A stretch of DNA of 64,000 bases from Thermomonas sp. (GTDB lineage: Bacteria > Pseudomonadota > Gammaproteobacteria > Xanthomonadales > Xanthomonadaceae), in NCBI RefSeq assembly GCF_029945965.1, contig NZ_JAQSDO010000015.1, positions 1,119,952 to 1,183,951 on the forward strand, written 5' to 3'. The position numbers and the translations under genes were made by a program. This document shows, in pieces, positions 41,601 to 46,218 of the stretch; positions within the stretch are counted from its first letter, which is position 1; each line of letters opens with the position of its first letter. The notes beneath the pieces are model-generated. The model searched no databases and was not told where the DNA came from. It saw only the letters and a list, made by a program, of their open reading frames with translations.

Positions 41601-41693
41601 GGAGAGGTGTCCGAGCGGTTGAAGGAGCACGCCTGGAAAGTGTGTAAGCGTCTAAACCGCGCTTCGGGGGTTCGAATCCCCCTCTCTCCGCCA
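41601..41693 (+). tRNA. tRNA-Ser(GGA)
   Basis: ggagaggtgtccgagcgg...ctGGAaa...long variable arm...ggttcgaatcc...ctctccgcca. Confidence 0.95.
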
Positions 41694-41760: not shown

Positions 41761-41862
41761 GGCCCCGTCGGCCCCTCGCGACGCTAGATCGAAAACTCCG
41801 CCAGGGCCGGAAGGCAGCAACGGTATCGATTGATGCGGGCGCCGAGGTCAGTCGGCGGGGCC
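41761..41862 (+). ncRNA. ffs: Signal recognition particle 4.5S RNA
   Basis: ggccccgtcgg/...ggcggggcc closing stem and conserved ccagggccggaaggcagcaacgg apical domain. Confidence 0.88.
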
Positions 41863-42009: not shown

Positions 42010-43359
42010 CTAGAAGGCGTTCCAGATGAACGCATACCACGTATTGTTGTCACTGGCATTGCGGCCGAAGCCGTCGTAGTTCCGACTGGCGCCATTGAAT
42101 TTACTGTACATGGTGTACTGCAGCCCGAAGCGCAGGTTCACCCATGGCGACTTGTACGAATCAGTCTCGCCAAACGGCGTCCAGTCGGCCTGCAGGACCA
42201 CGCCGCTGCTGTCCGGTTTGCCGGTGCGGCTGCCATCCCCCGGATTAGGCGCGTACAGCAGCGTGTCTCGATCGCTGCGGACATCAAACAATCCGCCCGT
42301 CAATCCGTAGTGCTCCTTGTAGTACCAGGACGCATTCACGTTGGCACTGGTGACATGTCCATTGGGGTGGTCGGCTTCGCCTCCGACGAAGGCGAAGTTG
42401 CGCCGCTGGTGCTCTTGGATGAGATCCGCGTCGATGATGAAAATGGAATCTGTGCTACCCAGGAATTGATAGCTGGCGTCGACGCCGAGATCGTCATAGC
42501 GATTGGTCGGACCATGCATGCGATCGGGATGGATGCGCGCGGACAATCCGGTAATGCCCACTTCCAGCGTGTGGCCAGGTCCGGAGAAGGTCGTGTTGAA
42601 CCGGACATAGGGGGCGACACCGTCGATGCTCCCGCCATCATCCACGTTCATCCTTCTCAGCATGGATGCCGACCAACTGCGGTAGAAACCGATCTCGCCG
42701 TAGTGGCGTCCATCAAGATAGGCATATGCAGAGGCGCCGACCACCTGTTGCCCCAAGCCACCTTCCAGCAAGGTAGCCACGGCGGGACCAGGCACCAACC
42801 CGGACGCCATGAAGGGGAAGCGCCAGGCTGGGGAGGTGTTCCATGCATCCTGCGAACCGGGATTGTTGTTGACGCTAACCCCGAACACGCCGGAGTGATT
42901 GCCCCAAGTCACTGGCTTTGCAAACCGGATATCCACATTGTCCATGGTCAGCTTGCGGTCGATATCCGAATAGGTGATCTGACCGAAGGTGCCCAAATGC
43001 TCGCTGAGGCGTCCAGCCAGAAACAGCGATACCTGCTGCAACGAAAAATTGTTATTGGGCTTGTCGTAGGGGCCGGCGTTGTCCGGCTGCGCCTTCGCCG
43101 TCCGGCTGTAGGACTCCACATCCATCACCGACAACGGAATATCGCTTTCGCCATTGCTCTGGGTGTAGCCGTTGAGCTTGAACTGGCGCCCGAAGGCGGT
43201 CAGCTGCGGACCGAAACCACCCACATGGCATCCCGAGCATGCCACCCCGGTTTGCCTGGCGTAGGAAGGAACGGCACTGGCCTGGCCTGCCGCCAGCAAG
43301 GCCACGGCAAACAGCAGGCAGAGCGCGTGTTGGCGCCCAATGGCACGAGTACAATTCAT
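42010..43359 (-). CDS. Cyc2-like monoheme c-type cytochrome / outer-membrane porin fusion (putative)
   Basis: Signal peptide; one CSGCH heme motif in YARQTGVACSGCHVGGFGPQLTAFGRQFKLNGY; long beta-rich C-terminal part ending in aromatic NTWYAFIWNAF. Confidence 0.75.
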   Translation of the reverse strand: MNCTRAIGRQHALCLLFAVALLAAGQASAVPSYARQTGVACSGCHVGGFGPQLTAFGRQFKLNGYTQSNGESDIPLSVMDVESYSRTAKAQPDNAGPYDKPNNNFSLQQVSLFLAGRLSEHLGTFGQITYSDIDRKLTMDNVDIRFAKPVTWGNHSGVFGVSVNNNPGSQDAWNTSPAWRFPFMASGLVPGPAVATLLEGGLGQQVVGASAYAYLDGRHYGEIGFYRSWSASMLRRMNVDDGGSIDGVAPYVRFNTTFSGPGHTLEVGITGLSARIHPDRMHGPTNRYDDLGVDASYQFLGSTDSIFIIDADLIQEHQRRNFAFVGGEADHPNGHVTSANVNASWYYKEHYGLTGGLFDVRSDRDTLLYAPNPGDGSRTGKPDSSGVVLQADWTPFGETDSYKSPWVNLRFGLQYTMYSKFNGASRNYDGFGRNASDNNTWYAFIWNAF

Positions 43360-43442: not shown

Positions 43443-43775
43443 TTAGCTAGGACGGTTGCTCTTGCTCCAGGCGGAACACCAGCCCTTCGGGGCAACGCTG
43501 TAGCCGGCGAACAGGGAGCAGGCGCCCGTGCTGGGAGTAAAGAACTGGCAGTTGGCGCAGTTGCTTCCCGGCTTGTGGTTGGCAGCCTTGACCAAAGAAG
43601 CATCTTCTGTGTAATTCAGCGCATGCGCCTGGGCATTGGTCACGGGCAACGGCGGCAATGGCTTGGCCTTGGCGTGAGCCTCAGTGGGCCAGCGCAGCAC
43701 AACAGGAATGGCAATCGCTGAAAGGCCCGCCAGGACCAGGAAACGACGTCGTTGCATGGTTTCGTTCGTGTCCAT
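43443..43775 (-). CDS. High-potential iron-sulfur protein (HiPIP), Tat-exported
   Basis: Twin-arginine leader MQRRRFLVLAGLSAIAIPVVL; CANCQFFTPSTGACSLFAGYSVAPKGWCSAW. Confidence 0.93.
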   Translation of the reverse strand: MDTNETMQRRRFLVLAGLSAIAIPVVLRWPTEAHAKAKPLPPLPVTNAQAHALNYTEDASLVKAANHKPGSNCANCQFFTPSTGACSLFAGYSVAPKGWCSAWSKSNRPS

Positions 43776-43922
43776 GGGATAGGCCTCCAGCCTGAGTTGG
43801 CTGGACCCTACTCCTAATGGAACCTTCCATTTGTGAAGAGTTCTATGCACATACAGCACGTATCGTCGGCAAGCCGACCAACGGTCTTCAGTCTTGCCGC
43901 GCGATACGGCATACGACCTGGT

Positions 43923-44432
43923 TCACGACAACGTCCCCACATCGCGCTTGCCACCGCGCTTGCCCAGCAATTTGGCAGGTCCGATCAGGATCGCGTGCGA
44001 CAGCGCCTTGCACATGTCGTAGACGGTAAGCGCCGCAACTGTGGCACCCGTCAGCGCTTCCATCTCCACGCCGGTGCGATGAGTCACCCGGACCGTGCAT
44101 TCGATGCGCAGCGTGCGCGGGTCGTGCCAGTCGATGGCGAGCTTGCAGCTGTCGATCGGCAACGGGTGGCAGAACGGAATCAATTCGTGGGTACGCTTGA
44201 CCGCCATCGTGCCGGCGATGATTGCGGTATCGACGATGCCGCCCTTGGCGCTGCGCAGGCCATTGTCGTGTAGCTGCGCGGCGACATCGGCCGGGAACCG
44301 CACGCGGCATTCCGCGCGGGCCTCGCGCACGCTCACGGCCTTGCCGCTGACGTCGACCATGGTCGGTCGGCCGGTGGAATCGAGGTGAGTGAGCTCGGGC
44401 GTTCGCTTCATCTGCATAGTATTGCCTGACAT
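43923..44432 (-). CDS. moaC: Cyclic pyranopterin monophosphate synthase (start 44432 or 44417)
   Basis: [63 protein letters not shown]. Confidence 0.96.
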
Positions 44433-44443
44433 CAGGCTTGAGC

Positions 44444-45466
44444 TCAGCCGCCGACCAGAAACATCTCGACATGCCGGCGCGACGCCCCTGCTTCGCTGCC
44501 TGCTCCAATACGCCGCGTCTCGCTGTAGCGATCGGCGCGCTGTTCCCACAAACCCTCCACATAGCTTGCCAGCGCATTTTCGCCCTGTGCCAGCAAGGGC
44601 CGCAGCGCATGCCCGGCTCCGGCAAACAGGCAGGTATAGAGCTGGCCATCTGCGGAGACGCGCGCACGGTGGCAGTCCCCACAGAACGGTGCGCTGACCG
44701 AACTGACAAAGCCCACTTCACCGGCGCCATCCACAAAGGCATGGCGCGATGCGACTTCGCCGCGGTAATTGGGATCAAGTGGCTGCAGCGGCCAGCGCGC
44801 ATGGATGCGGTCGCGGACTTCGATCGACGGCACCACACGTTCCCGCGACCAGCCATTGCAGGTACCGACATCCATGTACTCGATGAAGCGCAGGACGTGG
44901 CCGTGTTCGCGTGCGTACGCGGCAAGGTCGACGATGCCATCGTCATTGACGCCACGTTGCAGCACGCAGTTCAGCTTGATTGGTGTGAAGCCTGCAGCCT
45001 TGGCGGCAGCAATCCCGGCGAGCACGCTGGCAAGCTCTCCACGACCGCCTGACAGCTCACGGAACAACACAGGATCCAGCGTGTCCAGGCTCACCGTGAT
45101 CCGGCGCAGACCGGCATCGCGCAAGCTTTGCGCATGGGCCGCCAGCAGGCTGCCATTGGTCGTCAGTGCAAGATCCTCGAGACCATCGATCACCGCTAAC
45201 CGCCGCACCAGCTCGGGCAGGCGCTTGCGTAACAGCGGTTCTCCGCCGGTCAGGCGCAGCTTGCGCACGCCAAGCTGGACGAAGCCACGGACCAGGGTTT
45301 CGATCTCATCGAACGACAACCGCGATGCGGCATCCAGCCCATAATCGTCGCCGATCTGGTCGGCCGGCATGCAATACGGGCAACGGAAATTGCAGGCTTC
45401 GATCACCGACAGGCGCAGGTCGCGCAGCGGGCGTCCAAGCAGGTCACGCGGGAGTACTGCGGTCAT
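44444..45466 (-). CDS. moaA: GTP 3',8-cyclase
   Basis: [20 protein letters not shown] radical SAM; C-terminal [20 protein letters not shown] Fe-S motif. Confidence 0.95.
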
Positions 45467-46218
45467 TCCGGTACCACGCCGAGCGGCGTCCGTAACGCAA
45501 CCACCTCGCCCGGCATGCCGACCCGCCAGCCACGCGCGCGCAGGGCTTCGCCGTCCGCAATGCTTTCGTAGTGGTAGAGCAGGCAACGCTGCAGCAGCAC
45601 GTCTGGATATTCACGCTCGAGATCGTCGATGCCGCTATGCGAGGGATTACCGCGCAATGCGCAGTCGTGCGCGATCAGCTCATCGGCATCGGCATGCTTG
45701 GCCAGCATTTCCGGGATCGGACGGGTATCGCCGGTCCACACCAGGCTGCCATGCAGGCGCAGGCCGAACGCGGTGTCCGGCCAGTGGTGGCGCACCGGGA
45801 AGACCTCCAGGCGGATGCCGTCGTGCCAGAAATGATCGCCAACGGGAATGATCCGGAACGCATCCCAGAAATTGACCCCACCCTCGGCAAGTGCATTCGG
45901 ATAGCTGGCCACCCGCTGCTGCAGCAAGGGCATCAGGCCGACTGGCACATACAGCCGCACCTCGCCGCGACGCGCTTCGTCGAACCAACTATTGACGAAC
46001 AGCCGCTCGAAACCGGCAATGTGGTCCAGGTGCGCATGGGTCATAAACAGCGCCATCGGACTGTCGCCGTAGGCCTTGTGGTAGGCGGTCAATCCTTCGC
46101 CACCGCAATCAATGGTCAGCCACGGCGCGCCATCACGCTCGATGGTCGCCATCGCCGAACCCAACTCCACCGCAGAAGCGTTGCCGACGCCGAGCAGGCG
46201 TAGCGTCCATGCACTCAT
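45463..46218 (-). CDS. MBL-fold metallohydrolase
   Basis: LFMTHAHLDHIAGFERL; LVWTGDTRPI; LIAHDCA. Confidence 0.88.
   Translation of the reverse strand: MSAWTLRLLGVGNASAVELGSAMATIERDGAPWLTIDCGGEGLTAYHKAYGDSPMALFMTHAHLDHIAGFERLFVNSWFDEARRGEVRLYVPVGLMPLLQQRVASYPNALAEGGVNFWDAFRIIPVGDHFWHDGIRLEVFPVRHHWPDTAFGLRLHGSLVWTGDTRPIPEMLAKHADADELIAHDCALRGNPSHSGIDDLEREYPDVLLQRCLLYHYESIADGEALRARGWRVGMPGEVVALRTPLGVVPE

Follow-up and report, generated by a model that had tools for sequence, protein, structure and literature searches.

Cyc2 serves as the marker gene for microbial iron oxidation, and a cyc2-like gene in a Thermomonas sp. genome raises the questions of whether its product is a genuine member of this family, which protein would take over its electrons, and whether Fe(II) would supply them. 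The window referred to below is the whole stretch of DNA analysed (64,000 nucleotides), and the features concerned are collected in Table 1. The original prediction, made from the sequence alone, was of a monoheme c-type domain fused in Cyc2-like fashion to an outer-membrane beta-barrel, and the interval it named is filled exactly by one open reading frame with an ATG start, encoding 449 aa, a length above the minimum used for the Cyc2 family (at least 365 aa). The elements described there are all present: a hydrophobic signal peptide, which by reading of the sequence ends in ...QASA, is followed by PSYARQTGVACSGCHVGGFGPQLTAFGRQFKLNGY, containing the sole CXXCH of the protein, and the C terminus is the aromatic ...NTWYAFIWNAF. 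This open reading frame is not a product of chance, since full-length relatives were found at 43-53% identity with E values down to 1e-150. Their cytochrome segment is strongly conserved, both cysteines, the histidine, the lysine of FK, and other residues being invariant.

Table 1. Features of the cyc2-like locus and of its chromosomal surroundings (window coordinates)
Feature	Coordinates	Strand	Description
tRNA-Ser(GGA)	41601..41693	+	downstream neighbour, edge of site, outside module
Small SRP RNA	41765..41861	+	convergent downstream neighbour, edge of site, outside module
cyc2-like gene	42010..43359	-	signal peptide residues 1-29, monoheme c-type domain with CXXCH at residues 41-45, predicted 16-strand outer-membrane beta-barrel
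Heme-binding CXXCH codons (CSGCH)	43225..43239	-	
HiPIP gene	43443..43775	-	110 aa, ATG at 43775, RRRF twin-arginine signal, CxxC...C...WC cluster ligands

The published Cyc2 signature comprises AXPXFAR[Q/K][T/Y] before CXXCH and PXL after it (PMC8406198). Compared with this motif, the window protein reads AVPSYARQT-GVA-CSGCH-VGGFG-PQL, with a single conservative departure (Y for F) that is common to several relatives; the strict motif occurs in 104 of the 180 collected proteins and a relaxed form, permitting F or Y and any last residue, in 159. An AlphaFold model of the mature protein, computed from an alignment of 61 relatives from named genome records, is confident (mean pLDDT 92.8, pTM 0.90); in it, three short helices at the N terminus surround the heme motif and precede sixteen strands. 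The model thereby supports the proposed barrel, for which about 16 strands had been set beforehand as the check, and rules out that a barrel is missing. Foldseek comparison of the model with the PDB returned 16-strand porins, including OprP 2o4v and OprO 4rjw (TMq 0.52). OprP and OprO have also been named as structural homologs of Mariprofundus Cyc2PV-1, for which 16 strands were reported (PMC8406198), so that both the strand number and the shared homologs support a Cyc2 architecture. Localization in the outer membrane is predicted. The model contains no heme, and a closed barrel plugged by the heme domain is the presumed arrangement.

Searches of Pfam, NCBIfam, and PDB sequences with this protein returned no match, and family membership was therefore assessed through an anchored homolog. 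The class was screened with a profile of the relatives, and the matching genomes were then searched for rusticyanin. In one of them (G815), Cyc2 heads an operon on a single strand with a cupredoxin-like ORF, coxB, coxA, a further membrane protein, ctaA, ctaB, and rusticyanin (136 bits, slightly below the curated 146.7), a layout which we take to be the rus arrangement. The lack of a significant Cyc2 match, named in the original prediction as grounds for abandoning it, is ruled out by a BLASTP alignment of the window protein with this rus-operon Cyc2 from end to end (33% identity, E 3e-72). Both proteins lie inside one 71-row clade (support 100/99) of a tree of 90 proteins, and two other cytochrome-porin types, located outside that clade, match the window profile over approximately the first 120 residues only. 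This separation agrees with reports that A. ferrooxidans Cyc2 shares only its N terminus with Cyc2PV-1 and Cyt572 (PMC5566968) and that a network links Acidithiobacillus Cyc2 to Rhodanobacteraceae homologs (PMC10654088). By its motif, single CXXCH, model, homology to the rus-operon Cyc2, and position in the tree, the window protein is a Cyc2-family cytochrome-porin. Within the family it is Cluster 2-like, a placement anchored by the rus-operon copy rather than by published cluster sequences; the Cyc2 of A. ferrooxidans and of rus operons is reportedly Cluster 2 in McAllister 2020 and Keffer 2021.

Absent from the original prediction is a gene on the same strand that ends 83 bp upstream of the cyc2 start and whose own start codon was chosen by reading the sequence. 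Its product matches PF01355, the HiPIP family (E 5e-17, 62.3 bits, cut-off 22), and carries the four-cysteine cluster motif CANC...C...WC and a twin-arginine signal, QRRRFLVLAG, with a weak match to the TAT profile. An assignment to the Iro iron oxidases (NF041615) was rejected at 12.8 bits versus the required 100. The HiPIP was also rejected as the genus's own gene: a HiPIP gene is present in six other members of the genus, but at other genomic positions, and the ones included in a weakly supported tree are placed in a different part of it. No terminator-like site was found between the two genes on their strand, and a consensus scan found no promoter-like site; the two genes are presumably co-transcribed.

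The pair is located between the SRP RNA, tRNA-Ser, and dnaX on one side and moaC-moaA on the other, and no linked rus, cyc1, or cox genes were found among these neighbours, nor a cytochrome gene beside the pair in the window. As read from translations and compared with window positions 43443-45586, the slot beside moaC that HiPIP-cyc2 occupies in the window is taken by moaD-moaE in three genomes of the same genus (L061, L063, and L067). The only moaE of the host genome maps to G000:C6:396556, roughly 9 kb away from its cbb3 oxidase gene. The GC content of cyc2 and the HiPIP gene is 0.59-0.60 versus 0.645-0.65 for the neighbours. Lower GC content and occupancy of this site suit a recent arrival of the pair and do not prove it. 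Phage origin of the Cyc2-like protein was rejected, with no match in 50,697 phage records.

The presence of such a gene in an otherwise Xanthomonadaceae-like chromosome had been regarded as unexpected, and this part of the original prediction does not hold. Homologs were found in 39 of 298 sampled genomes of the family and 87 of 349 of the order, a handful of them N-terminal matches only, and cases from Xanthomonas, mentioned outright in one report (PMC8406198), and from Rhodanobacter are already in the literature (PMC8406198, PMC5566968, PMC10654088). Cyc2-type cytochrome-porins are thus a kind already known and common in the relatives of the host; the gene is unusual only within the genus, where the source genome is the one carrier among 25, and its gain or retention there is notable. 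Named carriers further include Lysobacter, Dyella, Zoogloea, Ideonella, Uliginosibacterium, Thiomonas, Derxia, Methylomicrobium, Phenylobacterium, and a Rokubacteria MAG, and homologs are borne on plasmids of Polymorphobacter, Caballeronia, and Acidiphilium, the last conjugative and with a transposase gene adjoining. Two plasmid records, CP084173.1 (labelled Acidithiobacillus ferrooxidans) and NC_009469.1 (Acidiphilium cryptum pACRY03), gave a Cyc2 match of equal identity, span, and bit score and seem to represent one plasmid type under two host names. Several genomes contain multiple cyc2-like copies (three in G503, four in G534, and a second copy within a few kb at L132 and L185), and at L056 (G353:C2:578234-579576) the gene is split into two overlapping ORFs, probably by a frameshift or an assembly error.

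To which partner the protein would pass its electrons was approached through the neighbours of cyc2 in 80 loci of named relatives, 72 of them usable for HiPIP and 73 for cytochrome, with 376 distant bins as background. A HiPIP gene lies within 1.5 kb upstream of cyc2 in 11 of 72 loci versus 3 of 376 distant bins (P 2e-7). The position directly downstream is taken by a small c-type cytochrome gene in 17 of 73 loci, again versus 3 of 376 bins (P 5e-12). Both P values ignore relatedness, several Dyella and Rhodanobacter loci being near kin. Across all 80 loci, 13 have a HiPIP, 17 a small c-cytochrome, and none both, with about 2.8 expected to have both. Because each carrier is enriched at its own position and the two never occur together in these loci, the HiPIP is the probable periplasmic electron acceptor of the Cyc2-like protein. 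The annotated gene order on the Caballeronia plasmid is HiPIP, cyc2, cytochrome c, so exclusion between these carriers is not strict.

The arrangement itself varies: HiPIP and cyc2 genes share a strand in the window and in G108 and are divergent in Dyella and Rhodanobacter, and in Alphaproteobacteria they again share a strand, with very different HiPIPs; the cyc2-HiPIP gene cluster of Bradyrhizobium has been published (PMC5566968). We read this pattern as repeated recruitment of a periplasmic acceptor beside cyc2. L032 and L003, which hold the closest relatives of the window protein, have no adjacent HiPIP, and the pairing is thus not conserved among close relatives. Co-occurrence across the family is not strong either (4 of 39 cyc2 genomes with a HiPIP, 2 of these adjacent), so that it is adjacency, seen in many lineages, and not co-occurrence that argues for the coupling. 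Clustering of conserved neighbours was performed on unfiltered ORFs and was cluttered by wrong-frame ORFs, leaving the families of response regulators, cytochrome b561, and HiPIP as the only readable ones. OmpR-type response regulators occur near cyc2 in up to 22 of the 80 loci (L114-L193 flanks), and a cytochrome b561-like gene lies directly upstream in 10 of the 80, which hints that regulation and partners differ in other lineages.

The host genome contains aa3 and cbb3 cytochrome oxidase genes and a qNOR-type gene, the types being read from the sequences and their neighbours. The qNOR-type nitric oxide reductase gene (G000:C15:26944-28281, L206) adjoins genes for an FNR-type regulator and an NnrS-like protein, and on this basis a capacity of the host for NO respiration or detoxification is probable. 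No RuBisCO match was found in the host genome, and growth by Calvin-cycle iron autotrophy is therefore unlikely, to the extent that the assembly is complete.

Drawing on the architecture seen in sequence and model, on homology, on gene pairing, and on these oxidase genes, we consider it likely that HiPIP and cyc2 constitute a two-gene module for extracellular electron uptake, with Fe(II) as the best candidate donor because the characterized family members are Fe(II) oxidases. The Cyc2-like protein would be exported by Sec, would receive one covalent heme in the periplasm, and would form a 16-strand barrel in the outer membrane, with the N-terminal heme domain plugging the periplasmic mouth. 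An extracellular donor could then reduce the heme without entering the periplasm, and single electrons would pass to the neighbouring Tat-exported HiPIP, which would deliver them either to NO reduction or, with or without an intervening c-cytochrome, to the aa3 or cbb3 oxidase. In a host lacking RuBisCO, such a module might provide auxiliary energy or detoxification rather than support Calvin-cycle autotrophy.

Fe(II) as the donor of the window protein is possible by analogy, and a serious possibility, although we place it behind Fe(II), is that the same conduit serves another donor, for instance reduced humics, reduced quinones, shuttles resembling phenazines, Cu(I), Mn(II), or a solid surface, Fe(II) being incidental; this alternative shares the whole mechanism and differs in the donor only. 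Of the named organisms with close homologs, most (Dyella, Rhodanobacter, Lysobacter, Zoogloea, Derxia, and Phenylobacterium) are heterotrophs and, to our knowledge, not iron oxidizers, and the missing RuBisCO match in the host points the same way. The literature allows functions other than Fe(II) oxidation (PMC5566968, PMC8406198) and cautions that much of Clusters 2 and 3 lacks functional verification (PMC8406198); a Rhodanobacter isolate from culture KS could not oxidize Fe(II) alone (PMC11366258), although Cyc2 is present in a Rhodanobacter of this culture (PMC5566968). The biochemically tested members, one per cluster, nevertheless oxidize Fe(II) (PMC8406198), and no donor-specific gene stands beside the pair in the window. 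The restraint of the original prediction in naming a donor was justified.

Two further explanations question the uptake itself. Porin-cytochromes can in principle run in both directions and HiPIPs serve several electron chains, so the protein might export electrons, serve redox balancing, or guard against periplasmic Fe(II) instead of feeding respiration, and its sporadic presence in the genus (1 of 25) would suit such a role. HiPIP potentials, however, are high, about +0.5 V and above in acidophile HiPIPs (PMC10879576), a value taken from those proteins and not from that of the window, and would favour inward flow to oxidases; export appears improbable to us. We give still less credence to an ordinary porin with a vestigial or structural heme domain and a coincidental HiPIP neighbour: Foldseek does return generic 16-strand porins and the nearest relatives have no HiPIP beside the gene, but the invariant residues of the cytochrome segment and the enrichment of HiPIP and cytochrome c neighbours argue against it. 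A broader idea, which we regard as rather doubtful, is that HiPIP-Cyc2 forms a compact cassette that heterotrophs use for electron uptake and that moves horizontally. It would have been put together on several occasions from different HiPIP lineages, would be exchangeable for a version of Cyc2 with cytochrome c, and would serve some donor or function apart from Fe(II)-based lithotrophy.

Returning to the two-gene uptake module, the pair in the window is probably an electron-uptake conduit, as judged from sequence, model, and analogy, with Fe(II) as the leading donor candidate by family precedent. An acidophile-like Cyc2 with a single HiPIP partner in a host without RuBisCO offers a small testable unit for asking whether such a Cyc2 oxidizes iron and whether a HiPIP or a small cytochrome c acts as the acceptor; should the donor be something other than Fe(II), surveys based on the marker gene count too many iron oxidizers.

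Among known systems, the window protein resembles A. ferrooxidans and rus-operon Cyc2 in its signal peptide, one CXXCH within an AxPx[FY]AR motif, PxL, LTxFGRxFK, and barrel, and in its clade and end-to-end homology, the anchor for the latter being the G815 copy (33%) and not the A. ferrooxidans sequence; it differs in having a HiPIP partner in place of linked rusticyanin, Cyc1, and cox, and in its host without RuBisCO. The CHxQHFPxLNxFGR proteins, which we take to be Cluster 1-like, match the window profile over about the first 120 residues only and form a separate clade. In architecture, the Cluster 1 proteins Mariprofundus Cyc2PV-1 and Gallionellaceae Cyc2 are nevertheless alike, being single-heme cytochrome-porins with 16 strands and an OprP/OprO-like barrel (PMC8406198). 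PioABC of Rhodopseudomonas palustris TIE-1 likewise joins an outer-membrane porin-cytochrome conduit to an adjacently encoded HiPIP, PioC (PMC10654088), but consists of a decaheme cytochrome and a separate large porin, whereas the window encodes one fused monoheme protein; the two would work alike without belonging to one family. In the Bradyrhizobium cluster, cyc2 is likewise grouped with a HiPIP gene, together with three periplasmic cytochromes c that are absent in the window (PMC5566968).
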